From Ignavibacteria bacterium (GTDB lineage Bacteria; Bacteroidota; Ignavibacteria; UBA10030), in NCBI GenBank assembly GCA_016873805.1, contig VGVZ01000002.1, forward strand, positions 1 to 64,000: a stretch of 64,000 nt of DNA. Reading direction: 5' to 3'. Shown piece by piece: positions 2 through 32,562 of the stretch. How positions within the stretch are numbered: position 1 is the first letter of the stretch; the number at the start of each line of letters is the position of its first letter. A program made the position numbers and the translations under genes. The notes beneath the pieces are model-generated. The model saw only the letters and a program-made list of their open reading frames with translations, was not told where the DNA came from and did not search any database.

Positions 2-661
2 TTACAGCAGATTGTTCACCACCCATTGTTCAACCTTCTCCGTGCCAATTCGCCAGAGACTATCGGCTAAAACGAGTGCAAACGTTGTATCACCATACTG
101 GTACTTGATCTCGCGAATCTGATCCCGGGGTATCATGACAATCGTTCGATCACGCCAATCAGCGACGGCTCGCCCGGCGATCGAAGCAAGATTAGCATCG
201 ACAAGATAGACCTCATCACCGTCCGGTAATCGCACGTACGTTTCATCGTACGTCCAGCCAGTTTTCCCGACGATAAGTCCCGCGCCACTCCCTTGTCCGG
301 TCAACATAATTTGAGTGCCGCTTGTATCGACTTGAAATAAGGGATGCTTTTCACGATTTGCCGATACCACACTTCTGGCACGAAGATCTGCGACCTCTCC
401 AAGGAAGCTCTTCACAATCGCTTGATCGGCGCGGTACTGGACCGGTTGTTCCAGAACCCACTCTGATCCTTTTTTCGCGAGCACAACTTTCTGTTGCGGA
501 GAGGAGATTGCGATTTTCGATATCGCGGATGAATCCACGGAGAGCAGTCGATCTCGCTCGTCGACAGAACGGCTTCTTTCTCCGGGCTGCTGCAGGAGAA
601 CATACGCGATCAACGCGAGAACAAGAACGAAAAGAATCAGTACCGGGATGTTACGTTTCAT
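2..661 (-). CDS. DUF4340 domain protein, ends unusually early
   Basis: A 219-residue protein with an N-terminal membrane anchor (about residues 4-23) followed by an extracytoplasmic beta-rich DUF4340-like region (around W68-V69 and the later VYLVD and TIVMIPR stretches). Family members commonly sit beside GldG-like ABC auxiliary proteins, as here: the upstream neighbour at 686-2185 is GldG-like with a 24-base gap, so the two are co-transcribed. The frame closes with TAA at bases 4-2, right at the window edge, after residues WVVNNLL. DUF4340 proteins are usually longer, so the stop may be premature. Function is unknown; presumably an accessory of the exporter. Confidence 0.7.
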   Translation of the reverse strand: MKRNIPVLILFVLVLALIAYVLLQQPGERSRSVDERDRLLSVDSSAISKIAISSPQQKVVLAKKGSEWVLEQPVQYRADQAIVKSFLGEVADLRARSVVSANREKHPLFQVDTSGTQIMLTGQGSGAGLIVGKTGWTYDETYVRLPDGDEVYLVDANLASIAGRAVADWRDRTIVMIPRDQIREIKYQYGDTTFALVLADSLWRIGTEKVEQWVVNNLL

Positions 662-685
662 AGGATCTTTGCTGGTCGATAGAGG

Positions 686-2185
686 TCAGAGCTGTGATTC
701 CAGTCTGCGCTTCCACACGATGCGTCGCCGCCATCGCACAAAGCCATAGGCAATCACCATCAGCGGCGGCAGAAGAAGATTCCCATACTTGACCAGGCGC
801 TTTGTTCCGTCGGATACCTGGTCAAGGGGAGGTTGGGCAATATTTTTTGATCGGATCGTAATCAAACCGGCATCGTCTGCGAGGTAGTCGACAATATTCA
901 CAAAGAATGTCAGGTTTCCCCGATTCCCCAAAAACTCATCCTGCATGAAGTCGCCATCGCCGACGACCACAAGCCGGGATGTTCCAAGTTGGCCTCCGGT
1001 GAGCGCCACGGCAAGGGGGATGCCGTCTTCCCCAAGGTCTTCCCGGGTGAATCGCTGAAACGGATCAAGCATGATGAAGCCCCCTTGGCGGCCGCTCTGT
1101 TTCGATGAACGAACCAGCACATCGAGTTGCGAACCGGACGCCGACAGACCGGCAGTATCAATAGAACTGACAAAATGGAAAATGACCGCGGAAAGGTCTT
1201 TGACGATAAGATTGTCTTTGTTGAAGTTTGACACCACCGGAAGGTAGGCAAACGGCATTTGCGTCTGCATCGTGAACGAACCCTGCTGTTGCACGACGCT
1301 GATATTCGCGCACTGCACGTCGCGCACAAGATCGGCGTTGACCGCCACGCCGTGCGACTGGAGGAGCCCCTCCAGCCCCGTTTCAATCGGCTGAGCATAG
1401 CGGCTTTGAAGATTTGCGTTCATGCGGTTCAGCAACAACGCCAGCTTCCCTCCCCGTGCAAGGTAATTCCTCATCGTCTCGAGGGATGCTTCCCCGAACT
1501 TCTTCTGAGGCGCCACCACGATCAGGGCGTCGACGCGAATCTCTTGAAGGAAGTCCTCGGCCAGGTTAATCGGGAGAAGCTCGTACTGACCAGCGAGCAT
1601 TTGAGAAGCCTGACGGAGGTTGGCAAGCTCCGGTTCTCCATGACCCGACGTGAATCCGATCGTTTTCTTCGTCCGTGAGGTGAGACGCTTCAAAATACTG
1701 CTGATGTCGTACTCGAGCGAGGAAAGATTCTGGACGACCGGGAGGAGTTCTCTCCGGTCCTCGTATTGAAAGACAAGTCCCATATACCCGCGCTTGACTT
1801 CCAGCTTGTCCTCATTGACGACTTGCACCTGGACCGGGACAACTCCCTGTTGCTGGGCTTCCTGTTCCCCCTTTTCCCCTTCGGGATTGATGAACTCGAA
1901 CTGAAGATTCCCCTTCGCATATGCCCTGTATTCGTTGAGAATATCCAGGACGGCACGTCTGTTCCCATTGTACGGTGCTGGCAGATCTTCGGTGAAATAT
2001 CCTTTCACATTTACGCGATCATCAAGCTGGGCAACGAGGTCCTTGCTTGACTGCGCGAGAGTGAAGACTCCCTGAGCCGTCAAATCGAGCCGAGTGAAGA
2101 GACGAATGGAAATGATGTTGATCAGCACGAGAATTGCAGTAATCAACACCGAACGAACGATAAGGTGACTCTTTTCCGATTTCAT
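686..2185 (-). CDS. GldG-like ABC transporter auxiliary protein
   Basis: A 499-residue protein with one N-terminal membrane helix (about residues 10-32), a large extracytoplasmic region of the ABC_transp_aux/GldG type, and a C-terminal helix (about 470-488) ending in a basic WRRRIVWKRR tail. Recognisable parts are the DILNEYRAYA and FINPEGEKGE region and the FTSGHGEPEL stretch typical of this family. In gliding Bacteroidota GldG works with GldF and GldA; many non-gliding relatives keep the same trio for an unknown export task. It lies downstream of the permease (2246-2986) and ATPase (3018-3998) on the same strand. The role of exporter auxiliary is well supported; the substrate is unknown. 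Confidence 0.85.
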   Translation of the reverse strand: MKSEKSHLIVRSVLITAILVLINIISIRLFTRLDLTAQGVFTLAQSSKDLVAQLDDRVNVKGYFTEDLPAPYNGNRRAVLDILNEYRAYAKGNLQFEFINPEGEKGEQEAQQQGVVPVQVQVVNEDKLEVKRGYMGLVFQYEDRRELLPVVQNLSSLEYDISSILKRLTSRTKKTIGFTSGHGEPELANLRQASQMLAGQYELLPINLAEDFLQEIRVDALIVVAPQKKFGEASLETMRNYLARGGKLALLLNRMNANLQSRYAQPIETGLEGLLQSHGVAVNADLVRDVQCANISVVQQQGSFTMQTQMPFAYLPVVSNFNKDNLIVKDLSAVIFHFVSSIDTAGLSASGSQLDVLVRSSKQSGRQGGFIMLDPFQRFTREDLGEDGIPLAVALTGGQLGTSRLVVVGDGDFMQDEFLGNRGNLTFFVNIVDYLADDAGLITIRSKNIAQPPLDQVSDGTKRLVKYGNLLLPPLMVIAYGFVRWRRRIVWKRRLESQL

Positions 2186-2245
2186 ACGGTCAACGAGAAG
2201 CTCCGATGGAACATGCAGGGGTCGCGCACGAGACGATGCGGAACA

Positions 2246-2986
2246 CTACATTTTCCGGCGCGCAAGTGAGACGACGGTCAGATAGAGCGAGAGACCAAGG
2301 ACACTCAGGAAATAAACAATATCCCGTGTATCGATAACGCCCCGGGTGATATTGGAAAAATGATAGTCGATGCTGATATACTCAAGCACTCCCATCAGCC
2401 ACACCGGCATATAGAACAGAACCTTATCCAGCATGAAGAGCGCGAAGACGAAAACGAATCCGATGATGAACGCAACAACCTGGTTTTCGGTCAGACTGGA
2501 AGCAAACAGGCCGATCGCGACATAGACTCCTCCCATGAGGAACAGTCCGAGATAGCCCCCGATGATCGGACCATGATCGACGTCGCCAAGCACCGCGATT
2601 GTACCGTAGAATATCAGCGTTGGAAGGAGTGCGGCGCCGACCAGAGCCCACGCCGCAAAGAACTTTCCAAGAACGATATCTGCATCATGGAGTGGTTTGG
2701 TGACAAGAAGCTCGATCGTTCCGCTTTTCCGTTCCTCCGACAAGAGACGCATCGTGATTGCCGGGACCACGAACAAATAGACGGCGGGGATGATTTCAAA
2801 CATCAGTCGGAGCGACGCAACGTTGGCGAGGAATACATTGCTTGCATGAAACCACCCGACGATCGCGAGAAACACGACAAGAACAACATACGCGATAGCC
2901 GAATTAAAATAGGAGGCGAGTTCCTTCCGAAAGATCGTATGTGCGTTTGAAAGACTCTCGCGATACTGATTCATGACCTGACTCAT
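2246..2986 (-). CDS. ABC-2 type permease, GldF-like
   Basis: Six or more hydrophobic segments and the family stretch VTKPLHDADIVLGKF identify an ABC-2/GldF-type permease of about 246 residues. I start it at the ATG at 2986 (MSQVMNQYRES), preceded by a purine-rich AGAGAGAAG. An upstream ATG at 3055 would overlap the ATPase gene and add a charged, unconserved leader. It forms the membrane channel for the ATPase encoded immediately upstream. The N-terminal HTIFRKELASYF motif (cytoplasmic coupling helix region) is typical. The substrate is not deducible. Confidence 0.88.
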   Translation of the reverse strand: MSQVMNQYRESLSNAHTIFRKELASYFNSAIAYVVLVVFLAIVGWFHASNVFLANVASLRLMFEIIPAVYLFVVPAITMRLLSEERKSGTIELLVTKPLHDADIVLGKFFAAWALVGAALLPTLIFYGTIAVLGDVDHGPIIGGYLGLFLMGGVYVAIGLFASSLTENQVVAFIIGFVFVFALFMLDKVLFYMPVWLMGVLEYISIDYHFSNITRGVIDTRDIVYFLSVLGLSLYLTVVSLARRKM

Positions 2987-3017
2987 TCGCTTCTCTCTGT
3001 TTTTCCCCTTGTTTCGT

Positions 3018-3998
3018 CTAAGATCTCGTCCTGTGGCTGTCGGATTCCATCTCATCCTTCATCGTCAACTTATGGAAGACTTCCTCTAGAGTCGTCGCTT
3101 CACGGAACAACTCCAGCAACACCCAATTCGCGTTGACCGCCTGACGAAAGATTTGTTCGCGCGCGTCAGTCCCCTTCAGTGTATGGAGGAGAAAGCGATG
3201 GACGTGATCGCTCGTCCCCTGAAATTCCACGTGTTCCACGCCTCGCAAAGACGCCAGCACGGGAAAGATTTCCGTCATCGGATTCTCGACCCTCGCCGCA
3301 ATCTCGACGGACAGCATATCGGATGCCCGGAACTCCTGCTGCAGTTTTTCCGGCGTCCCGTCTGCGACAATCTTCCCCTCATTGACAATGATCACGCGAT
3401 CACACGTTGCCTGTACTTCAGGAAGAATATGGGTCGAGAGAACGACCGTTTTCGCCCGTCCGAGCCTGCGGATAAGTTTCCGAATCTCCACGATCTGATT
3501 CGGATCCAGGCCGCTTGTCGGTTCGTCCAGAATCAACACATCGGGATCGTGGATCATCGCTTGGGCAAGACCAACCCTTTGCCGAAAACCCTTCGAGAGC
3601 TCTCCGATATCCTTGTGCCGCACGCTCCCGATTCCGCACGCGTCGACCATCTCCCGGAGCCGTCCCGTCAGCGCCGGGCCTTTGAGCCCGTGGAGCCGCG
3701 CAGAATACGTCAGGTAGTCCAACACATTCATATCGTGGTAGAGGGGATTGAGCTCGGGCAGGTAGCCGATTTTCTTTCTGACCTCCAGTGCGTGGGTCGC
3801 GACCGGATAGCCGTCAATCTCCACGCTTCCGGATGTCGGCGGCATATAGCAGGTGACGATCTTCATCGTCGTTGTTTTTCCCGCTCCGTTCGGACCGAGA
3901 AAACCAAGAATCTCACTCGTTCCGACGTCAAATGAGATATCGTCAATGGCTTTGTCATGACCATAGAATTTGGTCAGATTTCGTACGGTGATCGACAT
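3018..3998 (-). CDS. ABC transporter ATP-binding protein, GldA-like
   Basis: A 326-residue ABC ATPase. Visible motifs are Walker A GPNGAGKTT (residues 35-43), the Q-loop region, the signature LSKGFRQRVGLAQAM, Walker B DVLILDEPTSGLDP and the switch histidine in STH. The C-terminal ~90 residues (after ADGTPEKLQQEF) form the extra domain seen in GldA/NatA-like ATPases. It heads the operon ATPase - permease - GldG-like - DUF4340, with tight spacing throughout. Likely energises an export or membrane-remodelling process. A gliding role cannot be claimed from this alone because the other gld genes are not in the window. Confidence 0.93.
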   Translation of the reverse strand: MSITVRNLTKFYGHDKAIDDISFDVGTSEILGFLGPNGAGKTTTMKIVTCYMPPTSGSVEIDGYPVATHALEVRKKIGYLPELNPLYHDMNVLDYLTYSARLHGLKGPALTGRLREMVDACGIGSVRHKDIGELSKGFRQRVGLAQAMIHDPDVLILDEPTSGLDPNQIVEIRKLIRRLGRAKTVVLSTHILPEVQATCDRVIIVNEGKIVADGTPEKLQQEFRASDMLSVEIAARVENPMTEIFPVLASLRGVEHVEFQGTSDHVHRFLLHTLKGTDAREQIFRQAVNANWVLLELFREATTLEEVFHKLTMKDEMESDSHRTRS

Positions 3999-4217: not shown

Positions 4218-5630
4218 TCAGCGCCGGAGGGAGAACGTGAACCGCACCAGCGTTTGTGCTTCAGCCGGGCCCTGGGATGTCCGTCCCGGTGAATACTTTG
4301 ACCTCATTGCCGCGTCGATCGCCGCGTTGTTCAGCGCTTCGTGATCGGATCGGTGAATCGCCGCCGATTTCGGAGCTCCCGTGGCATCAATCAAAATGCG
4401 AACGATCACATTTCCCTCAATATTCATGCGCATTGCGATCTGAGGATACTCCGGCGCCTGCAACGAAATCACTTTTGGCTCGACTTCGATGGGAAGGAAT
4501 CCTGTTGCTCCTGCTGTGGCAGCCGGTTCTGCCGCTGGTTGTGCCGGGGCAGCGGGGGGATTTGTGACCACAGCCGGCGGGGCTGGAGCCGTTGTCGTCG
4601 GCGGCTGTTCTGTTGCTCGTTCAGTCGATGTTGGTCTCGTCGCGGTCTCCTCTGTTCTCTGGACCGTCTGTGCGGTCGACTGAGTCCGCGTATCTCTCGC
4701 CGGTCGTTCAGAGACCGGCGCTCGCGTTTCCCTCGGTTGTTCGCGAACCGGTTGCGTGGTTCGATCAGACATCGAACGCGTATCGCGCCCACGGCTCTCT
4801 TCCTCGATCGGAGGAGTCTCAATCGGTTGCGTCAGTTGACTACTCGTATCCTGCGGTTGCGCGACGATGCTCGCGGGAACGGCTGGTCGTTGAGACATCG
4901 CAGCCACGGAAGTAGACGGCTCCGGTTCCTTCCTCGTGACCAGGTACACAACGCCCACGGCGACGAGCAATACAACCACGATAACGGCAATTTTGGCTCC
5001 ACCGCCTCTTCTCGTTTCCTTTCTTCGCATGCGGAGCGGCTCAGCGACGGGTTGAGGCTTTTCCTCCGGAACCGGTGGAATGTCTTCCTTCTCCTTCACC
5101 TCTTCGGTTTTTTCGGCAGCGACGCTCGAGAGCTGGGCGATTTTTTCTTCGAATTCCTTTGCGGCGCGATCGCTTGGATCAAGGATTTTGATTCGTCGAA
5201 CTTCTTCCAGCGCCCGCGGATAGTCTCCTTTCGCGACGTATTCATCAGCCCGTTCGAAGTACTGGCTTTTGAGCTTCTCGAGAGCCTTCTTTTTTTCAGC
5301 CTCGGCTGTGGAACCTCCAGCAGGCTGCGTCGGGGCACTCAGGGGACGATCCCGCTGGCTGGCATCTTTGATGGCATGCTGGATAATCCCTGACAGCGAT
5401 TTTGTGGTTTCCTCCACAGTTTCCGGGGTCGGCGATGCGTTTTTCATCTCCTCCAGCAGTTTCTCAAGCTGTTTCTCGAGGGCAATTAAGTAGATGTTGC
5501 GGGCATCGACGAGCTTCGCATCGCGTACGCGCCCGATCGCGTCGGCGATACTCCCCTTGTTGATGAGTTCCTGTGCTTCCCCCATTCGCTGTTCGATATG
5601 CTGCCGCAGTCTCTGTTGTTCACCGGTCAT
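4218..5630 (-). CDS. TonB-family protein with cytoplasmic TPR-like repeats
   Basis: A 470-residue single-pass protein. Two TPR-like repeats lie at about residues 17-60 and 123-167, with the signature ALEEVRRIKILDP in the second. A basic stretch precedes one membrane helix at about 213-231, followed by a Pro/Thr-rich periplasmic linker (about 240-370) and a C-terminal TonB domain (about 375-470) with YPQIAMRMNIEGNVIVRI. By topology the repeats are cytoplasmic, which is unusual because TonB proteins normally have only a few residues there. The same repeat occurs ten times in the gene just upstream (5654-8113, 23-base gap), so the two products may bind each other. No ExbB/ExbD genes are nearby. 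Confidence 0.85.
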   Translation of the reverse strand: MTGEQQRLRQHIEQRMGEAQELINKGSIADAIGRVRDAKLVDARNIYLIALEKQLEKLLEEMKNASPTPETVEETTKSLSGIIQHAIKDASQRDRPLSAPTQPAGGSTAEAEKKKALEKLKSQYFERADEYVAKGDYPRALEEVRRIKILDPSDRAAKEFEEKIAQLSSVAAEKTEEVKEKEDIPPVPEEKPQPVAEPLRMRRKETRRGGGAKIAVIVVVLLVAVGVVYLVTRKEPEPSTSVAAMSQRPAVPASIVAQPQDTSSQLTQPIETPPIEEESRGRDTRSMSDRTTQPVREQPRETRAPVSERPARDTRTQSTAQTVQRTEETATRPTSTERATEQPPTTTAPAPPAVVTNPPAAPAQPAAEPAATAGATGFLPIEVEPKVISLQAPEYPQIAMRMNIEGNVIVRILIDATGAPKSAAIHRSDHEALNNAAIDAAMRSKYSPGRTSQGPAEAQTLVRFTFSLRR

Positions 5631-5653
5631 AAGACTTCATCTCCAAAATCACG

Positions 5654-8113
5654 TTACTTCCCGTCAGCTGCTGATTTACGGTCTGGATAGATAAGCTTCA
5701 GGGGTTGATCCTTTTTTTCGTGCTTTGCCTGGTCGCGCCGAATGTTTGCTTCACATCGTCTGATTTCATCATGGAGAGGATCGATCGCCGAGGCCTTGGC
5801 AATCTCATCAAATGCCTTGCTGAACTCGAATTGCTCGGCAAACTTCTCAGCTGCCCGGAGGTGAATTTTCACCAACCTCTCAGACTCCTGTTCTTCGCCC
5901 GACTTCTTTCCTCCTCGGCTTTTTTCCGTGCTCGCCTCATAGTCCATTGATCGCTGCGACCAGATCAGCTCTTCCAGTTCTTTGAGCTCACTGTTGTTTT
6001 CCTCGACGGTATACCCGATGGCAATCTCCGTCAACGCTTCATCGTACCGCTTGTTCTTGAAATACTCTTTGGCTCGTTGCGCGTGATTCCGGAGGGCCTG
6101 AAGTCTTTCGTTCTCGGCACGTTCACGTGCAAGAACCTGTGCGAGTTCCGCTACATCGTTCTTCATCGCGGCGAGCACCGCATCCTCAGGGTTGATCAGC
6201 AGTCCCGCTTCGACTTCCTGGCGTGCATTCTCGGCGTCGCGTGCGACAAGGAACTGTCGGGCGCGATCCGTGTGCTCGCTCAACTGAGCTCGTCGCTTCT
6301 CTTCGGTCTGCTGTGCAAGGAATCGTTTTTGTGCGGTGACGATTTCCTCCTGCAGAATCGTCAATTCCTCCTGACGTCGGCCGGCGGTGAATCCCTTTTG
6401 GACTTCCGCGAGCGCTTCTTCGAAGAGCCCTTGTCCCATGAGGTCCTTCGCGAGGCTGATCTGTTCCCTGACACGTCGCTGTGCGTCTTGCTCGGCCCGG
6501 TGCTGCTCAAACTCCATACGCAGCTCGGTTTCGAATTGCTGAACATTCTCGTTCAACGGGTCGAGCAGGAATGCACGCGCGACTTCGTCGAGCGCCTGGG
6601 TGTATTCCTTGATCGCTCGCAACCGTTCCGCTTCGAGCAAATGAATGGCAATTGTTTCCTCGACGTTTGCTTTCGAGGTTTCCTGCACCATCTCTCCGGC
6701 ATCGGTTCGTTCCTCAACGAGGAGACGCTGTTGTTCCTGGTGATTTCGGATTTCCTGTTCGAGGGTCTTCACACGTTCGTCAAACGGGTCGATGATGAAC
6801 GCGAGGGCGACCTCAGCCAACGCATCCTCAAACTGTTGCGCGTCGAGTGATTTTCGTGCCCGATCGAGGTGACCTGCAATTTGCTCTTGCTTTCGCGCTT
6901 CAACGGACTCGAGTTCTTTCTTCTCAGAGATCAGGGCCTTCTTCCGCTCGGCTTCTTCAAGGCGTTTGAGTTCTTCCTCATGACGTTTCTGCATCGCCTC
7001 TTCCTGTCGGCGGCGCTCTTCTTCGGCCACACGGTCTGCCTCATCCCGCATGGTCACAATCCGTTGCTCGCATTCCTGGAGCGCGGCGTTCATCGGGTCG
7101 AGAGCCATTGCTCTGGTGATGACGCGAAGGGCCTCGGCAAAGCGGTTATTGCGAGCGAGGTCGTCGGCAACGGCAATCTGTTTCTGCAGCGATTCTTCGA
7201 GGTCTTTGAGTTTCTGTTGACGCTCTTCCTGACGCTTCTTGTATTCCTCCATTCGCTCCAGCTCGGCCTTCTCCTGCCGTTCCTTGATTTGTCGCTCGAG
7301 GGTCAGGATCTCTTCATCCAGCGGTGCGATCACGATGGCAAACACAAGCTCGCTGAGCGCAGCATCCAGGTCCCCTTTCTCCATCAATTCCTTTGATCGA
7401 CTGATGTATTGTCGGATTTTTGCTTGCTGGGCTACCTGTCGGGCTTCATGTTCTTTTCGTTCCTTCTCTTCCCGGTCGCGCTTGAGCTGATCCATCCGCT
7501 CCTGGATAAGCTCACGTTTGCGGTCTTCCCGTTCCCGTTCTCGCTGGGCCTGCAAGGATTCCTGGAGGCGCAGTTCTTCTTCCTGGGCAGTCCGGATTCG
7601 CTCCTCAAGGGAAGTGATTCGCGGATTGGAGGGGTCAAGGAGATAGGCCCGTGCGACCTCATCGAGCGCGCGATGGAAGTCTTTCTTGGTACAGTACTCT
7701 TCCGCGCGTGCGATGAGGCCCGAGATCTTTTCCTCGATCGCGGCACGACGTCCTTCTTCCGCTCGCTGGCGTTCCGATTCCTCCCGCATTCGAGCTTCGA
7801 GCTGCTCTTCCTGCTTCGTGACAACTTCGGCGGTCCGTTCGGCCTCGACAAGCGCGAGATTCAATACGTGTTCGAGAATGGGAGACAGAGGTTGGAGCTC
7901 ACCTCGCTCCGCTTGCGACTGGATGGCCCGCACCCGGTCCTCGTACGCGAGCGCATAGAGGTTTTTGGGATCGATGAGCCTTGCTTTTCGGATTTCTTCG
8001 AGAGCGGCCGGAAACTGCTTTGCTTTCACCAAAACGTCCGCTTCTCGCAGCAGCGGGGCAACCTGTTTGAGTTGTTCTGCTTTCCGGGTCGGTTGGTTTT
8101 TGGACTGGGTCAT
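5654..8113 (-). CDS. Ten-repeat TPR-like/coiled-coil cytoplasmic protein
   Basis: An 819-residue, highly charged protein with no signal peptide. It holds about ten copies of a ~45-residue unit of the form (A/R)(A)xxLxxxxxFxxALxEVxxAxxLDPxNxxxxxLExxI, for example RALDEVARAYLLDP and QALDEVARAFLLDP. The units are separated by Glu/Arg/Gln-rich helical spacers predicted to form coiled coils. Repeats 2 and 6 are nearly identical at the core. It is the first gene of a two-gene operon with the TonB protein, which has two copies of the same unit at its N terminus. A scaffold role is inferred from architecture; no enzymatic motif is visible. Confidence 0.8.
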   Translation of the reverse strand: MTQSKNQPTRKAEQLKQVAPLLREADVLVKAKQFPAALEEIRKARLIDPKNLYALAYEDRVRAIQSQAERGELQPLSPILEHVLNLALVEAERTAEVVTKQEEQLEARMREESERQRAEEGRRAAIEEKISGLIARAEEYCTKKDFHRALDEVARAYLLDPSNPRITSLEERIRTAQEEELRLQESLQAQREREREDRKRELIQERMDQLKRDREEKERKEHEARQVAQQAKIRQYISRSKELMEKGDLDAALSELVFAIVIAPLDEEILTLERQIKERQEKAELERMEEYKKRQEERQQKLKDLEESLQKQIAVADDLARNNRFAEALRVITRAMALDPMNAALQECEQRIVTMRDEADRVAEEERRRQEEAMQKRHEEELKRLEEAERKKALISEKKELESVEARKQEQIAGHLDRARKSLDAQQFEDALAEVALAFIIDPFDERVKTLEQEIRNHQEQQRLLVEERTDAGEMVQETSKANVEETIAIHLLEAERLRAIKEYTQALDEVARAFLLDPLNENVQQFETELRMEFEQHRAEQDAQRRVREQISLAKDLMGQGLFEEALAEVQKGFTAGRRQEELTILQEEIVTAQKRFLAQQTEEKRRAQLSEHTDRARQFLVARDAENARQEVEAGLLINPEDAVLAAMKNDVAELAQVLARERAENERLQALRNHAQRAKEYFKNKRYDEALTEIAIGYTVEENNSELKELEELIWSQRSMDYEASTEKSRGGKKSGEEQESERLVKIHLRAAEKFAEQFEFSKAFDEIAKASAIDPLHDEIRRCEANIRRDQAKHEKKDQPLKLIYPDRKSAADGK

Positions 8114-10095: not shown

Positions 10096-10743
10096 CTATT
10101 TCCCTGATTCCCACTCTAACTCCGCGCACATATCAAAGTCGATGCTCGACGATGATCCGTTCCGGAGATGCACCGTGACAATGACACTGCTCAGGCATCC
10201 CCACCCCGTGTATTCGACGCGGTACCCGTCTTCCGCATTACTCGAACGTTGCGTCTTCTGACGAAACGTCGGATGATTGAACTCATAGACCACCTCAACA
10301 ACTTCCATCTTTCGCTCGCGAGGTACATCGACCCACAAGCTGAAGTCGTAGTATGTCTCTTTCTCTCCTTTGATCGCTCTATTCTCCACCGCGCGGGCAC
10401 GGGGACGTACCGTCGCGACCAGGGGAAGGGCTTGTGTGAACTCGCGGCGAAGTTGCCGGTTCTGGGTTGCCACGACCGCTTTTTCGATCTGCACATACGA
10501 TTGTTCGAGCTCGCGGGTATTGGAACGGAGCACATCAATTTGCTTCTGCATTGACTCCGACTGCGATGTCAATGAATCCAGAAGCTGACGCTTCTCGCCG
10601 ATCTGCTCATTCACGGAATTCAGTTTGTAGAGACTGAAGAGGAATGCTCCGCCCACGATGATCACTCCCACCAGTGTAATGAGCGCCGACTGTCGGGAAG
10701 ATTTTCGGATCTGGTGTTCGTCGAAGACCGTCTGCGGGTTCAT
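10096..10743 (-). CDS. Membrane-anchored coiled-coil protein with pYEATS-like domain
   Basis: 215 residues: a short basic N terminus, one membrane helix (about 19-41), a coiled coil (about 42-98), then a C-terminal beta domain (about 130-212). That domain carries the hallmarks of prokaryotic YEATS (pYEATS) domains: VVYEFNHPTF at 151-160, a central GWG at 180-182, and a final strand after VHLRNG. pYEATS domains have been proposed as sensor or adaptor modules in bacterial conflict and stress systems. The start codon overlaps the end of the 10740-11018 gene by four bases, so translation is coupled. The domain call rests on motif memory and needs a profile search. Membrane sidedness is unclear. 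Confidence 0.7.
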   Translation of the reverse strand: MNPQTVFDEHQIRKSSRQSALITLVGVIIVGGAFLFSLYKLNSVNEQIGEKRQLLDSLTSQSESMQKQIDVLRSNTRELEQSYVQIEKAVVATQNRQLRREFTQALPLVATVRPRARAVENRAIKGEKETYYDFSLWVDVPRERKMEVVEVVYEFNHPTFRQKTQRSSNAEDGYRVEYTGWGCLSSVIVTVHLRNGSSSSIDFDMCAELEWESGK

Positions 10744-11018
10744 TGGTCACCTCCTTCGAGAACCGGAAGGAGCAGTTTGATGGCATCGCTCCACATTTTG
10801 ATGACCCTTCCCGTTGCGATCGTGATCCCGCCCGACGATCCAAAGAGACCCAAAACGGCAACAGTATCGGCCCCCTTGAAGAGGAGATAGATTGCGCAAG
10901 CCAGGAGGACCACCAGAGAGAGAATGTTGACGATGAGGTATACCATGCGCTCGGCCCGAAAGAGCCTGAGCATTGTACCGATCGCCTGGAGTCGATCATT
11001 GAGTTCATTTGGCGGCAT
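10740..11018 (-). CDS. Small two-helix membrane protein (TRADD-N-associated type?)
   Basis: 92 residues with two hydrophobic segments (about 25-47 and 50-68) separated by a short loop, then an amphipathic GRVIKMWSDAIKLLLP helix. The pattern (helical N terminus, two membrane helices with a Gly-rich GLFGSSGG turn, then TGRxxxMW) resembles small membrane proteins reported beside TRADD-N or pYEATS modules. I give that as a resemblance, not a proven family. It is translationally coupled to the pYEATS-like gene and 56 bases downstream of the patatin gene. It may help form a membrane complex with them. Confidence 0.62.
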   Translation of the reverse strand: MPPNELNDRLQAIGTMLRLFRAERMVYLIVNILSLVVLLACAIYLLFKGADTVAVLGLFGSSGGITIATGRVIKMWSDAIKLLLPVLEGGDQ

Positions 11019-11074
11019 ATGCCCTCACGCAGTTGTTCATGGAAGATGAATTTCGATCATTTTGGCGCAAAAAG

Positions 11075-12847
11075 TCACTTTTTGTCGAGTCTCCCCTTTC
11101 GCAGGAAAACAGGATCTACAAGGAGGAGATGGAGTTTCGCAATAAGAAAACCGGATAGCGCTACGACCGAGGAAACGACATATCGAAGGAAGAAATCTTC
11201 GCCGATGTTCCTGACATAAGAACTCCCGATGTAAGGTGCCACAATGAGCGCGAGCAAAGAAGTCGCGGCCAGCAGGCCCAGCACAATTGACCCTCCCGGC
11301 ACGAGAAACCAGAGGGCCGCGACGAGCGCAAGAGGAATGGCGAGCCCTAAAGCGGCAATGAAGACTCCGACTGGGATCATCCATGGTGCCATCCGGTATG
11401 TCTTCAAGAGCCGCATAGCACCAATCCGAAGAAGCTTGCGATAGGCCGAATCCAGAGTTTCTGCGGAAGCGCTGTCGCGAACCGCTTCAAACATCCATTT
11501 CGTGTTCGAATCGTGTTTTGCTCCGCGAATGCCGGTCGAGTCTCTCTCAACACGCGAAGACCAGCTTGCGGGAATTGCCGTTTCAGCCATCGCGTACCCG
11601 CTGTAGATCAATGAATAGGCCTCCGTGTCGGAGAAACAATCGAGATCGGTTCTGAGATTGGAGAGATAGATTTGAGCTTCTCCGTTCATTCCGTACGAGG
11701 TTTGTGCTGGCATCCTCTTGCTCGGTTCCGTCATCACCCCGTGCGGAGAGAGTCTTTCAACACCAAGTTCATGTTGAAGATGAAGCACCGCATACCGTGT
11801 GATCGAACCGTTTTGCTGCATTGATTCGAGCAGCGTGAACCCCGCATCACGATTCCGATCCATCAGCACTCCGTTCGAGCGTCCGAGCACCCCAACCAAG
11901 CCGGAGCTTGATACTCGCTCATCCGGAAGAAGTCCGCTCGCATCGCTTGCAATGATCATGGTGCATTCTTCCGAGATGAGTCCGGAAATGCCCTGGTTAT
12001 CGTAGAGACCGCCGTCGACAAGTTTCGGAGTGACGTTGGTGTACAGACCCGTGAGCGGAAGCGGCGCAAAGATCCCCGGCACACAGGCAGAGGCGGCCAC
12101 AGCAATGCTGAGTGGAATGGACCGATACTTCGAAGGTATTCCATCGTCGTCATATCGGAAAACCGAGAGAATGGCATTCTTGTCGACCCTATCCGATCGT
12201 GACCGATCACGCATGAGATCGCTCTCGCGTTCTCCGGCATCCACGGCGGTGAATTGCCAGTTGCGTCCGGTATTGAGTGTGGTTGCATTGATCAGCAGAA
12301 TTGGGACTTTGTGCCGACGGGTTCGGTTGTGTCGATGAGGATGAAAATTGTCCGGCGCGCCGGGGGGCTGGATTCTCAGCCGATTTAGCGGAATGCGCTG
12401 CTGCAACGCCGCCGCATCGTAGAAGAACTCGTCATAGAGTTCGGCCATGCGATCGCTTCTCGAGTAGCTTCTGTCATAGATCATTCGCCAGTTCTTTCGG
12501 AAACTGGAATACGCACGGACGCGGAGGTTGCGTTGGATGGCCGGGACAAATGATCGTTCAATCTCCCGAACAAGCCCGACGTACGCATTTGAGGAGATCT
12601 TTTTGTCCGAAATCGACTCGAGGAGTTTCTTAAGGTGCAAATAGTAAAGGGCTCCGATGATGGATCCCCCGGAGACAGTGGAGATCACTTCAACGGAAGA
12701 GAGGAGGTCTCGCTCCGCCAACCTGGCGAGGACGCCAAGATGGAAGAGGGACGCGCGGAAACCTCCTCCGGACAACGCAAGACCGAGCTTGAATTTGGTT
12801 CGGTGTATGATTTTTTGATGACGCCGGCTCTTCATCCTGGTCTCCAC
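11075..12847 (-). CDS. Patatin-like phospholipase with C-terminal membrane helices
   Basis: A 590-residue patatin. The oxyanion-hole glycines are in LSGGGFRAS (25-33), the nucleophile is in TVSGGS (S59) with the VSGG variant of GxSxG, and the catalytic Asp is in VDGG (D278). ASACVPGIFAP (252-262) is a typical block. About 500-590 holds three or four membrane helices, so the enzyme is tethered to the membrane. Patatins hydrolyse acyl esters of phospholipids, and several anti-phage systems use them as membrane-damaging effectors. It is first in a five-gene unit behind a strong-looking promoter at 12961-12989. The start could be M1 or M5. Confidence 0.88.
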   Translation of the reverse strand: METRMKSRRHQKIIHRTKFKLGLALSGGGFRASLFHLGVLARLAERDLLSSVEVISTVSGGSIIGALYYLHLKKLLESISDKKISSNAYVGLVREIERSFVPAIQRNLRVRAYSSFRKNWRMIYDRSYSRSDRMAELYDEFFYDAAALQQRIPLNRLRIQPPGAPDNFHPHRHNRTRRHKVPILLINATTLNTGRNWQFTAVDAGERESDLMRDRSRSDRVDKNAILSVFRYDDDGIPSKYRSIPLSIAVAASACVPGIFAPLPLTGLYTNVTPKLVDGGLYDNQGISGLISEECTMIIASDASGLLPDERVSSSGLVGVLGRSNGVLMDRNRDAGFTLLESMQQNGSITRYAVLHLQHELGVERLSPHGVMTEPSKRMPAQTSYGMNGEAQIYLSNLRTDLDCFSDTEAYSLIYSGYAMAETAIPASWSSRVERDSTGIRGAKHDSNTKWMFEAVRDSASAETLDSAYRKLLRIGAMRLLKTYRMAPWMIPVGVFIAALGLAIPLALVAALWFLVPGGSIVLGLLAATSLLALIVAPYIGSSYVRNIGEDFFLRYVVSSVVALSGFLIAKLHLLLVDPVFLRKGRLDKK

Positions 12848-13043: not shown

Positions 13044-13904
13044 CTAGAACGCCAGCCGGCCGCCGATTGAATAGTACGTTGCGCTGTACGTCCCGCCAGC
13101 AACGGGAGAGAACCGATCGTAGGAAATGTCTGCAAAGAGTGAGCCCCACGGCCAGGGCGCGACAAAGACGGTAAATCCTCCCCCAGCCTGATGAGCATCG
13201 AATGTGTTGTACAGAAGAAAGATATCAGGTTCGTAATAGAGACTTCTTCGCCCGTACTTTCCGGTAAGGAGCATGCCTGCAGAGTGGGAGAGTGAATGGT
13301 AGTAGCTGACGTTCGTCGAGAGGAGCGTCTGTCCATGACCGATGTCATCCGCGAAACGATCGACATTCACGCGACCCGTGAGCCATCCTCCCGTCCCGAT
13401 CCCGCCGGAAACAGACCCAGAGACTCCCATCGTGCGCACATCCTTGAACAGGTTCCCCTGCGCCTGCACACCAAGAATCAGATTTGAAGCAACGAGATGA
13501 TACCACAGCCCGCCATAGAACGTAACACTCTTGTCTGTCAACGCGCTGTTGGATGAAGTGTACACGAGATCGCTGCGCAGAGAAAGAAGATTTGATCCGA
13601 CGACGAAAGAGTGACCTTTCGACAGCAAGAATTGATTCTGCAGATATTCAAACCCGCCGGTGTACGCGATTCCAGTCCGCCGATATCCACCTGTCCACGC
13701 ACTGTTCCAGTGATCGATGAATGAGATCCTGACGCCATAATGACTGATCTTTTCCTGGCTCGCGTCCCGGTACGTCCCGGAGGTAAAAACCTGGTCGACA
13801 GCAACGACCGGATAGACAACGACTTGCGCCTGCAATGGCGGTGAAACAGCCCAACAAAGGATGACAACCACCAGAGATCTCGAAAACGTGCTCATATTCT
13901 TCAT
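13044..13904 (-). CDS. Outer-membrane beta-barrel protein
   Basis: 286 residues with a signal peptide (LVVVILCWAVSPPLQAQ, cleavage after AQA-like site) and repeated amphipathic strands rich in Tyr, Trp and Gly, ending in the C-terminal Phe typical of outer-membrane barrels. Length suggests about 12 strands. The gene starts inside the stop of the transporter-peptidase fusion (TGATG overlap), so it is translationally coupled as the last gene of the six-gene operon. A role as outer-membrane exit or entry port for the operon's product is inference. Family not recognised. Confidence 0.7.
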   Translation of the reverse strand: MKNMSTFSRSLVVVILCWAVSPPLQAQVVVYPVVAVDQVFTSGTYRDASQEKISHYGVRISFIDHWNSAWTGGYRRTGIAYTGGFEYLQNQFLLSKGHSFVVGSNLLSLRSDLVYTSSNSALTDKSVTFYGGLWYHLVASNLILGVQAQGNLFKDVRTMGVSGSVSGGIGTGGWLTGRVNVDRFADDIGHGQTLLSTNVSYYHSLSHSAGMLLTGKYGRRSLYYEPDIFLLYNTFDAHQAGGGFTVFVAPWPWGSLFADISYDRFSPVAGGTYSATYYSIGGRLAF

Positions 13905-16078
13905 CAGCTTGATCTTCCTCCACGTTCCACAGTTTCCTTCAGCTCAAGCTCCATCTCTTCTCCTTTGAAGTGCGTGAGTCCTGAAGGACGCGCAAAGGTG
14001 TACATCACCGTCCGAACCTTCTTCGATGGAGCCCATGAGCCAAACGGTGTTTGGAGAATCAAGGAGGCCTCGGAAGTGAGCTTAATCGATTGCTGCGTTG
14101 CGTGCAAGAGATTCGACAACTTAAACCGGCAGGAGACCCCGACAACCGACAGGAGGTCGAATATCATCACGAGACCGCGCGATAGCGGATCACCCGCCTC
14201 TTCAACACTGGTCCACGACAATGTTTCTCCTGTCACGAGCGGAACATCTGTCAGCAGTTCTCCGACGTGATAGAGTCCTGTGTCCCTTGACCCCTCAAGT
14301 TTCCTCACACTCAATACCCCGTGATCCATCGTGAAGGTCATCCTCGTTTCTATGGGCGCGCTCACGATGCTGAGATTTCCGTGAAAATCGATTTCGGTCC
14401 GCCACCTCTCGGTGGTCACAGAATCTCGACGCGTCATCGCGTAGATGAGGTCATGCGCAAAGGAATAGGGGAAGAACTGCTGTGCGTGCGGATTCACCGG
14501 GAGGTGCTGTATCAACTCCCCTTCCTTCGGTGTCCCCCTCAGGACAAATTCCTTGCTCTCTGACTTTTCCTTCAGGTAATGCGCAAACTCGAAACAGAGC
14601 GTTGGAGCTCCGATCGTGGGAACACTCTGGACCTGAAAATGGAGATGCGGATAGGGAGAGCGTCCTGAATTGCCGCATCGACCGATCGCCTGTCCGGCAC
14701 GCACGCGATCCCCGATCTTCACTTGAGCGCTTCCTTTGCGGAGGTGTGCGACGCACGAGTAGTAGTTGGGGGCATGTTCGATGATCACCGCATTACCCCA
14801 GTGGTCTCGCTCGTTGACGGTTCCAATCGGATTGTCGTGCACATCCGACGTGACGTGGACGATCGTGCCGTCTGCAGGGGCGAGCACCGGTACGCCAAAA
14901 CAAGGATAGTCTACGAGATCAGAGCCTGAGCCTTTGTGAAGCTTTCCCTTCGATCCCGGAATGACGAAGTCGATCGCAAAACGCCAGTCTTCTTTGTGTG
15001 TCATTGGTCCGTCAAATCCCTGCGTCACGATCCACGTGCCATTGAATGGAAGAATCATTTCGACCCCCCAGCGGCGGAATTGGCGGAGATTTGCCCGATG
15101 AGTACTCAGGTTTTCTTCGGGGGTCGAGGCTTCAGCGAGCGATAACTGGAGTCCAGGCGATGGCGAGAGCCGCTGCTGCAAGACATAGAGAATCAGGAGT
15201 GTAATGATGTTGAACGGGAGTGCTGTCGGCGGGAGGTACGCGGGGAGAAGCACCTTTGCACTGAGCATGATCAGCGCCGAGGCTGCGGCTCCAAGGACAG
15301 CCAGAACGAGAGCACCGGCTCGCGGGATCAAGAATATTCCCCCGAGCGCGATGCCCGTAAGGACATAGTTGAATCCAAGGTATTGCTCGGTCAGAACCTG
15401 AGGATACGCGCCAAGCCACGCGTGCGTGACATACCCGGCCGCAAATCCTGCAACTCCGAGAAGCACTCCGATTCGGGAGTGAACAAGGAACGCGATGAGG
15501 ATGATCGCCCCCGAAAGGACATCGACTTGAAACAGGACGGCGCCGAGCGATCGGAGAAAGAGATCCGCAACGGAAGAGCCGGTGGTAAGCCCTGCCGCAC
15601 TCAACGGCCATTCAGCAAGCTCGAGCTTTCCGAAGCCGAGCGAGGCCGACACGACGATCGAGAACCCGATCACGAAGGGGAGGCTCAAGGCCGGGAGCCG
15701 CAGATAGTACCATAGTGTTCGCTGAAGTGCTTCTGCGAGGAATGTCGTAAGGATACCTCCCAGGAGCACAAGGATGACGAGATTGAATGATGGAGCATAG
15801 AAGAACGTGAGTGCGAGGGCGACGAGCAACGGATTGAACCCATAGTACCCCTTGCGGATCTTCTGCCGTTCGAGCCCCAGTATGAACGCCGTGCCGTTGG
15901 AAGTCAGAATCGCAAACAGCCCGATTAGTCCGGTAAGAGGATTGAGAAACGTCGTCAGGGCAACGAGGATGCCGAAGGAACGACGCTGGGAGAAAAAGAC
16001 AACACCGTAGCTTCTCACGGTGGAGTCAATGAGAAAGGAGATATTTTCGCGCAGGTGGGCGGAGAATGGTCCCATCAC
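13904..16078 (-). CDS. Urea-transporter-like / M23 metallopeptidase fusion
   Basis: 724 residues. Residues 1-310 form a urea-transporter (UT/SLC14-like) domain: YGFNPLLVALAL at 79-90 and its internal-repeat counterpart GFNYVLTGIALGG at 235-247, plus LPALSLPF at 128-135. Residues about 340-490 form an M23 (LytM) peptidase: zinc ligands look like H361 and D370 in HKEDWRFAID, then H445 in AHLRKGS and H480 in PHLH. A C-terminal ~200-residue beta-rich region follows. Joining a small-amide channel to a peptidoglycan-type endopeptidase in one chain is unusual. The gene is 7 bases after the PLP decarboxylase and overlaps the barrel gene, so it belongs to the same pathway. Substrates are unknown. Confidence 0.83.
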   Translation of the reverse strand: MMGPFSAHLRENISFLIDSTVRSYGVVFFSQRRSFGILVALTTFLNPLTGLIGLFAILTSNGTAFILGLERQKIRKGYYGFNPLLVALALTFFYAPSFNLVILVLLGGILTTFLAEALQRTLWYYLRLPALSLPFVIGFSIVVSASLGFGKLELAEWPLSAAGLTTGSSVADLFLRSLGAVLFQVDVLSGAIILIAFLVHSRIGVLLGVAGFAAGYVTHAWLGAYPQVLTEQYLGFNYVLTGIALGGIFLIPRAGALVLAVLGAAASALIMLSAKVLLPAYLPPTALPFNIITLLILYVLQQRLSPSPGLQLSLAEASTPEENLSTHRANLRQFRRWGVEMILPFNGTWIVTQGFDGPMTHKEDWRFAIDFVIPGSKGKLHKGSGSDLVDYPCFGVPVLAPADGTIVHVTSDVHDNPIGTVNERDHWGNAVIIEHAPNYYSCVAHLRKGSAQVKIGDRVRAGQAIGRCGNSGRSPYPHLHFQVQSVPTIGAPTLCFEFAHYLKEKSESKEFVLRGTPKEGELIQHLPVNPHAQQFFPYSFAHDLIYAMTRRDSVTTERWRTEIDFHGNLSIVSAPIETRMTFTMDHGVLSVRKLEGSRDTGLYHVGELLTDVPLVTGETLSWTSVEEAGDPLSRGLVMIFDLLSVVGVSCRFKLSNLLHATQQSIKLTSEASLILQTPFGSWAPSKKVRTVMYTFARPSGLTHFKGEEMELELKETVERGGRSS

Positions 16079-30174: not shown

Positions 30175-32562
30175 ATGTATCGCGTCTATGTTGTGTTGTG
30201 GATGTTGCTTCTGAATGGTCTTGCTGTCGCATCGTGAGCTCAGGTATCCGATCGAACACAGGTTCATATTCTCTACGATGTGTCCGGCTCAATGGGGCCT
30301 CGTGCGAACTATTCCCACGTAAAGGAGTTTGCCCGGATCGTCAGAGGTGAATTTGGAACACAAGAATGTCACCAGTACTTCATCACGGTCTTCGGCAGCT
30401 TCTCACATCGCGTCGCAGAAAGGGGGGATTCGCTCGATCATGCCAAGTTCCTCGAGGCCTTTGTTCCTCGGAAGAAGGCGAAGCCAGCTGAGCCAGAAGA
30501 AAGAATAAGTTTGTACACCGACGTCAACCGTGCATTGGACTCGGCCTTGGCCCGGATTGCGTTCCAAGACACCAAAGCACCTTCCTTCCCCATCGTCTTG
30601 TTGATCACCGACGGAAGACTTCCCCCAAGCGACATGGGAGCCAAACAACCCGATCCCGAGATGTACCGTGATTCGCTTCGGCGCTTGCTTGTTCAATTGG
30701 ACGATAGCGCATATGTCGCTGTCGTGCTCTACCGGACATGTCCCGAGCCTGACACGACAGATCTTGAACGTATCCTACCGCACGGTTTGCCGACGTTCAG
30801 CATTTACTCCATGTCTCCTGATTCTCTCACTCCCGCGAAACAAATGACGAACGTCGTTCGCCGATTGTACGCTGGGGCTGATCGAAAGCGATCACGAAAG
30901 CCCGGCCAGAAGGGTCTTCCAGAATCAGTTGCCGGACTCCTCGAGGCCGATTCCCTTCCCAGGGAATTTGGGTGGTTGAAACCGAGGGAGACAGAATCTG
31001 TCTCTTTCCAGAAGCTTGACTCTTTCATTAGAGACTCAACAAAGCTGCTGAAGAAATTCGGAGAGGTTAGTAGCGACCGTCGATTGCAGGGGCAAGCGAC
31101 TGCATTGGACAAACCTGGATTCAGCAGAATTGAGATCCAGAATGCATGGACGACGAGCAAAGCGACATCAACACCAGCGTTCACAGTCGAGGCGACGACT
31201 CGGTTTCTGGCTGAGAGAATTGAATCAGAGCTTGTCTATCTTTACCTGGAACGCTTTTCAGATCTCCTCCGCAAACCACCCATGAAAACCCTGTTTCCTC
31301 AGACGTTGAAGGCGGTGAAAGCATCGACGGATCCTGAGGTCCAGCTATCGACTTCTCGTCAGCCTTTATTTGTCGTACTGCGGAGGGCAGTTGAGGCAGA
31401 TCTCCAATATTTTCCAGTACACATTGTTGAAGCTGCTGCCATCCCGCCTGACAGCACAGAAGTAACCACATCGCACGGCGACGCGATTGGCACATTTCGC
31501 CGCCACGCAGATGTCGCATACAAGCTGATAAAAGATCTCCTCGACAAAGGGGGCTCTCTTCATGAGCTCCTGGCGGAGATTGCACCCGACACGTCAGAAA
31601 CGTGGCGGGCGTTGAAAATTGTTAGCCTTGTGGCACGGAGGATTTCGCAGGGTGGGATATCCGAGAGTTCAGATGTCAATAACGCGCTCTCATGGGTCAT
31701 CCTGCACGAGTTCATGAGGGATACATCTGTTCGGTATTGCGGGGATCTCAGACCCATCAAGCTGGAAACCGATTCTATTCTCGCCAGGTTTGGAACCATC
31801 ATCAAGCGCGGGAGAACCGCAAAAGAAAAGTTCTCGATCGACGAGACAAACGAATATTTCAAAGATGTCGCAGGGATCTTCAACGCCGGCCAGAAGATTA
31901 GCAAGATCATCTGGAACGAAAGCGACTACGATTATTCAAACTTTCTCGGCCTTTGTGCCGCTGCCTGGCAACGGGACCACGGCACGATGCTGCTTCATCT
32001 TCGTGATGTCCTTTCGGATCTAGACGTTCTCAATTCCAAAGAATTCTCGGCATCAATGAAGTACATAGGTTTGGTCGTCGATCTAGCTCGAACGAGTAGC
32101 AGCGAGGAAATGAATAAGGTCCTCTCATCGTACGCCAATCCCCCCGGCTCCTATCGTCTCAAGCGAGATGGAATCGTCTCGCTCACGGTCTCTGCATATC
32201 CGTCCGCACGGCTGTTGTGGTCCCCAAGGAGGAAAGACGATGTATCCGTTGTCGGATTAGGGTTTGGATTCCCTGTCGGAATTGACTATGTCTGCCGATC
32301 CGTCCACAGTCAACAGTTTGCGGTTTTTCTCAGCGCGGTCGATTTCGGCAATCCCCTCATGTTGCATCTCCGTGGAAAGAGTACTGCCGCGATAACGTGG
32401 GAATCCATCCTTGCGCCCGGACTTGTGGTCTTCGTACCGGTCGGGAATCAGACTCCGTGGGGAGTGCTGCTTGGTATCTTCGCCGATGAGGTCGCGCAGG
32501 AAGGTCGCTTGCGTCTGCAACTCGGCTTCAGCTACGACCTCAGCCTCTTCAACGTGCGTTGA
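30175..32562 (+). pseudogene. Secreted von Willebrand A protein with in-frame TGA in signal peptide
   Basis: The ATG at 30175 has a near-perfect AAGGAGGG site and opens a signal peptide (VVLWMLLLNGLAVAS). A TGA at 30235-30237 interrupts it exactly at the cleavage region, and the frame then runs unbroken for 775 codons. The vWA domain follows at once: the MIDAS motif DVSGSMG, then VLLITDGRLP. A start at 30280, inside the MIDAS motif, would destroy the domain, so the TGA is a real interruption or a base error. The rest is largely helical, ending in a beta-rich domain with LGFGFPVGIDYV. No Sec or other recoding signal is visible. Function unknown; envelope adhesion or sensing is possible. Confidence 0.72.

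Follow-up and report, generated by a model that had tools for sequence, protein, structure and literature searches.

We describe a conserved gene pair of an Ignavibacteria bacterium in which a protein built of tetratricopeptide repeat (TPR) units is encoded next to a TonB-like membrane protein that carries the same unit. The pair lies on the minus strand of the 64,000-nucleotide stretch that was analysed as a whole (positions 1 to 64,000 of contig VGVZ01000002.1, assembly GCA_016873805.1; hereafter the window, on contig C2), and a gap of 23 nt separates the upstream gene, R (P0002), from the downstream gene, T (P0001). Both genes sit where the original prediction had placed them. The pair is real and conserved, and it is a variant of a known layout consisting of a cytoplasmic domain, a membrane helix and TonB_C. 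We propose that R and T together make up a module of two proteins that acts as a non-motor tether or signal relay between a scaffold and the envelope, a reading to which we give about an even chance. TonB_C proteins are routinely annotated as energy transducers; the T family offers a testable case in which TonB_C is seemingly the passive arm of a cytoplasmic scaffold.

R and T share a TPR-like unit of ~45 residues. A profile made from five R units of the window protein detected ten units in R; in T it detected two, the first weak and the second strong. Since this profile was derived from R itself, a second, independent profile was built from 296 units of 43 R proteins of relatives, with T and the window left out, and it matched T units 1 and 2 at 12.8 and 36.5 bits, respectively. 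The best score was 7.0 bits for shuffled T residues 1–210 (n=2000, 0 at 10 or above), 6.3 bits for shuffled residues 1–100 (n=2000), −0.9 bits for the best other open reading frame (ORF) among those of the window's first 20 kb, and 6.5 bits for the best unit of the one ordinary TPR protein tried. Because the T units outscored all of these, both are, judged by profile score, real and nearer to the R units than to that ordinary TPR protein. The unit common to both proteins had been proposed in the original prediction together with a search of a repeat profile against the T N-terminus, and the match to the relatives' R units bears it out.

By its sequence, the unit is a TPR. R passed the TPR profile PF07719 (41.4 bits, cut-off 27), T reached only 14 bits with the TPR Pfam profile, below the cut-off, and a T profile matched designed consensus TPRs (E 2.1e-8). 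The AlphaFold2 models of R and the T N-domain showed paired antiparallel helices in the manner of TPR hairpins (mean pLDDT 84.2 for the T N-domain; mean pLDDT 81.4 and pTM 0.30 for R, which is helical outside its tail). A structure search with the T N-domain gave 0 matches at E 0.001 or better, the weaker matches being TPR proteins only, and the R model matched TPR proteins with low TM-scores. In contrast to TPR scaffold proteins, R and T have single TPRs on long shared helices without a compact superhelix, and R has a conserved tail. The best match of the T N-domain profile was R units 1–2 (E 9.7e-20, 68 bits), compared with at most 30 bits elsewhere in R; therefore, the T N-domain looks like a copy of the R N-terminus. 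In a tree, seven R N-termini formed one group (100/99), separate from T.

The units of T are predicted to be cytoplasmic, as the original prediction had placed them. The sole strong hydrophobic helix of T follows the units and precedes TonB_C (PF03544, 60.5 bits, cut-off 24.6), and the 15 residues on each side of it contain seven Lys and Arg residues before the helix and two after. In all 32 membrane-bearing T proteins of the window genome and its relatives, the N-domain was wholly N-terminal to the helix; in 29 of them, more Lys and Arg residues preceded than followed the helix, in two there were fewer, and in one the counts were equal. These signals predict an N-in orientation like that of TonB.

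The C-terminal tail of R suggests how the two proteins might meet. R proteins adjoining T carry the sequence LKL[IV]Y, which begins 12–17 residues from the C-terminus; L, K, L and Y were invariant in the aligned T-adjacent R proteins of two alignments (14/14 and 15/15). In the AlphaFold2 model, R residues 802–819 had pLDDT <50 and are predicted to be disordered. We counted the motif within the last 30 residues of 44 distinct R-type ORFs with at least four units and an intact 3′ end, after removal of duplicates by the last 300 residues, using a strict form, L[KR]L[IVL]Y, and a widened form, L[KRT][LM][IVL]Y, that was set after LTLVY and LTMVY had been seen. Of R proteins beside T, 26/30 contained the strict and 28/30 the widened form, compared with 1/14 of those away from T (Fisher's p 2.7e-8, shared ancestry ignored). 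The latter comprised four R-like proteins with no T nearby, eight R′ proteins (the first R protein of the R doubles of family f5) and two halves of a broken R of genome G301, whose C-terminal half, near a contig end, was the only one with the tail. As the motif is short and invariant, yet predicted to be disordered, it looks like a docking motif of R for T. One genome, G253, encodes four T proteins (L146–L148), each adjoining an R; two of these R proteins have no tail.

The original prediction attached the scaffold to the energy-transduction apparatus of the envelope. In the excerpt of PMC12215075, the TonB helix binds ExbB through the Ser-X3-His of the SHLS motif, and excerpts of PMC12215075 and PMC12905483 describe a Ser-His pair that touches ExbB, with the His reported as essential. 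The membrane helix of the window T contains no His, so that the Ser-X3-His signature of TonB is absent. A helix His was likewise absent from 31 of the 32 membrane-bearing T proteins, the exception (L101) having it at the far end of the helix. Nineteen other TonB_C loci were compared; one was too short and seven had no helix in the chosen frame, and in this comparison, with its crude choice of frame, nine of the 11 left had a helix His. No motor gene was found near the pair, ExbB/MotA-type genes being present on contigs C26 and C14 only. On C26, a TonB whose helix contains Ser-X3-His comes after ExbB-ExbD; C14 contains a second ExbB/ExbD set and no TonB_C match. T is thus probably not driven in the usual TonB way, an argument that rests on one motif.

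The pair and its variants were traced in 61 nearest-relative genomes, 294 genomes of the class and a draw of 395 from the phylum; the relatives with names are Bacteroidota metagenome-assembled genomes, many labelled Ignavibacteriae. Among the nearest relatives, the pair occurs in seven genomes of the window's family (G001, G003, G007, G024, G026, G028 and G030) and also in G020, where R runs past the contig end, with looser forms in the window's order. The T N-domain profile matched 37/294 class genomes at E 1e-8 or better, R and regulator proteins included, and full-length T was found in 29/294 (E 1e-35 or better). In the phylum draw, any T-domain match was found in 9/395 genomes and full T in 6/395, all within the window's order. 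The pair is kept across four families with differing outer neighbours.

The form of T varies among these families. TonB_C is present in T of families f1, f6 and f9. Five T proteins have a membrane helix and no TonB_C recognisable with Pfam: those of G041, G046 and G054, and one each in G036 and G274, which also have a longer T (that of G274 with a sub-threshold TonB_2 match only). In family f5, T is soluble, with ~160 residues, and its ten rows form a single clade in the tree. These counts of five and ten allow for two tree labels, of which “TMonly” on L081 was overruled, since Pfam finds TonB_C there, and “soluble” on L163 is doubtful, as its frame may be broken. Since T occurs with TonB_C, with the helix only and as a soluble protein, its constant part is the two-TPR N-domain and not TonB_C. 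The anchor domain therefore exists both with and without TonB_C.

Because T lacks a helix His, a separate ExbB-ExbD-TonB set is encoded in the genome, and the T proteins of some relatives lack TonB_C or are soluble, our preferred reading of T is an anchor, not coupled to a motor, for a scaffold with a signalling or structural role. Anchoring a scaffold is the likelier role for T, and membership of an energy-transduction machine the less likely one. In line with the original prediction, the conserved pair points to a cytoplasmic scaffold connected to a protein of the inner membrane; the proposed link to energy transduction is not supported. In the model we propose, R would be a cytoplasmic helical rod offering ten TPR docking sites, and T its inner-membrane anchor, the cytoplasmic two-TPR N-domain of which would receive R, most likely via the disordered LKLIY tail. 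The helix and flexible spacer of T would put TonB_C in the periplasm, where it could hold a partner in the outer membrane or wall. Without being driven by ExbB/ExbD, the module would tether the scaffold to the envelope or relay signals between the two. Its likely clients would be response regulators carrying the TPR unit. More tentatively, and with some doubt on our part, the system may be a lineage-specific trans-envelope scaffold, in which the TPR rod is hooked by LKLIY to an interchangeable anchor that is soluble, membrane-bound or membrane-bound with TonB_C. If so, one signalling scaffold could either stay in the cytoplasm or be linked to the outer envelope with no need for a proton motor. 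This would show one bacterial way to link cytoplasmic signalling proteins with the periplasm or outer membrane.

Gene context points to signalling in one family. Each family has its own neighbours: some members of f1 have an M23 peptidase upstream, f6 has DUF4139 and vWA proteins, and f5 has kinase/regulator genes. Conserved neighbours were accordingly dropped as a clue to function, and only those of f5 inform the model. In this soluble-T family, genes for a histidine kinase, a response regulator, R′, R and T follow in this order in 7/7 records with enough upstream sequence. Relatives with a single unit comprise response regulators that have a receiver domain and, besides these, one protein with a putative cyclase-like stretch in a by-eye reading of its sequence; contig C4 of the window genome encodes one response regulator headed by the unit. 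These regulators, which run from the unit through two-helix repeats to the receiver domain, have at their N-terminus the TPR unit that is also found in R and T. They are cytoplasmic signalling proteins and, unlike T, possess neither a membrane helix nor TonB_C. Response regulators of this build, with one or more TPR units at the N-terminus, a helical segment present in duplicate and a receiver at the C-terminus (L025, L029, L031, L032, L036 and L174), are common in the lineage.

Several observations weigh against the tether or relay model. L001, another TonB_C protein of the window genome, also has no helix His. The association of tail and T is uncorrected for shared ancestry, the alignments with the invariant tail contain T-adjacent rows only, and the two R proteins of G253 without a clear tail do adjoin T. 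The kinase/regulator link is confined to the soluble-T family and is absent beside the window's pair. Four genomes (G057, G060, G279 and G291) have two T proteins each and no true R, which indicates that T does not always depend on R. In G057, G279 and G291, only proteins of ~820–890 aa weakly matched the R profile, with three units in those of G057 and G279, the two that were read; in G060, the sole R-profile match was T itself, and in G291, one T copy is split over two frames. These four genomes, together with the relation of the T N-domain to R units 1–2, favor the explanation that R and T are paralogous TPR neighbours that arose by duplication and do not bind each other. The R tail tracks the presence of T, however, and the pair is kept in four families despite differing outer neighbours, and we regard this explanation as unlikely.

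Still less probable, in our view, is the reading implied by the original prediction, in which ExbB/ExbD would drive T as a TonB serving transport across the outer membrane, with the additional cytoplasmic domain adjusting or positioning the motor. Such a role would fit the TonB_C score far above the cut-off, the Pro-rich spacer and the presence of ExbB/ExbD in the genome, including the set on C14 that has no TonB_C match there. It conflicts with the T helix lacking His, the lack of a motor gene near T, the dedicated TonB adjoining ExbB/ExbD, and the T proteins of several relatives without TonB_C. GldA/GldF/GldG-like ABC genes and a gene for a DUF4340 protein lie downstream of T (2–3998, minus), and the general layout of T is as in GltG/GltJ (excerpts of PMC3169522 and PMC5349195); hence a gliding or focal-adhesion-like apparatus that includes these genes was also considered. 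The Gld-like proteins scored under the NCBIfam cut-offs, at other loci, the highest GldA match had 36% identity over 222 residues and most had ~30%, and T has neither an FHA domain nor adjoining motor genes, so that this apparatus seems improbable to us. As functional partners, the downstream genes were dropped because their presence next to the pair is not conserved.

TonB_C proteins with a cytoplasmic domain are already known: in the excerpts of PMC3169522 and PMC5349195, GltG (PglI) and GltJ (AgmX) from the Agl-Glt system in Myxococcus xanthus have that layout with one helix and a periplasmic TonB_C, and the excerpt of PMC5349195 describes both as modular TolA/TonB-like proteins. GltG, with FHA at 26–90, a membrane helix and TonB_C at 570–637 in the excerpt of PMC3169522, is the closest described layout to T. 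The arrangement, unfamiliar to the original prediction from described TonB systems, is thus not without precedent in kind. T differs from GltG in having two TPR units in place of FHA (no FHA match with Pfam), and from both proteins in the lack of adjoining Agl/Exb motor genes (no AglR/Q/S found) and of the motor histidine, and in having a TPR rod as its partner; homology outside TonB_C was looked at by Pfam only. Canonical TonB and TolA also have a single N-in helix, a flexible spacer and TonB_C, whereas T has a cytoplasmic domain of ~210 residues and no helix His, and T proteins of relatives lose TonB_C. The excerpt of a force-transducer survey (PMC12204202) mentions TPR genes as neighbours of vWA transducers that have motor genes, an arrangement unlike R–T. 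In a limited literature search, no pair of a TPR rod and a TPR–TonB_C anchor with a shared unit and conserved tail was found described.

Table 1. Features of the R–T pair in the window (residue numbers of the encoded protein in brackets).
Feature	Position	Strand	Basis
R, 819 aa, all-helical putative scaffold, ten TPR-type units, no membrane helix	5654–8113	minus	profile, hydropathy, AlphaFold2
R unit 1 (18–63)	7925–8062	minus	first profile
R unit 2 (129–177)	7583–7729	minus	first profile
R unit 3 (232–280)	7274–7420	minus	first profile
R unit 4 (308–356)	7046–7192	minus	first profile
R unit 5 (411–459)	6737–6883	minus	first profile
R unit 6 (487–535)	6509–6655	minus	first profile
R unit 7 (548–595)	6329–6472	minus	first profile
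R unit 8 (610–645), weak	6179–6286	minus	2.3 bits first profile; 19.8 bits relatives' profile
R unit 9 (674–717)	5963–6094	minus	first profile
R unit 10 (749–795)	5729–5869	minus	first profile
R tail motif LKLIY (805–809), predicted disordered	5687–5701	minus	alignments, pLDDT
T, 470 aa, TonB-like: predicted cytoplasmic two-TPR N-domain, membrane helix, Pro/Thr/Gln-rich spacer, TonB_C	4218–5630	minus	Pfam, profile, hydropathy
T unit 1 (12–55), weak	5466–5597	minus	both profiles
T unit 2 (122–164), strong	5139–5267	minus	both profiles
T membrane helix (214–232), without His	4935–4991	minus	hydropathy, charge bias
T TonB_C (392–468), predicted periplasmic	4227–4457	minus	Pfam PF03544

A 356-aa protein encoded next to the pair had no Pfam match and no match at other loci. 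Elsewhere in the window, a pYEATS-domain membrane protein is encoded close to a patatin-like phospholipase (10096–12847, minus), and a 724-aa ORF (13904–16078, minus) combines a urea transporter domain (PF03253, 184 bits) with an M23 peptidase domain (PF01551, 65.7 bits). A 760-aa ORF (30280–32562, plus) gave no Pfam match at E 0.001, and its start appears vWA-like by eye.

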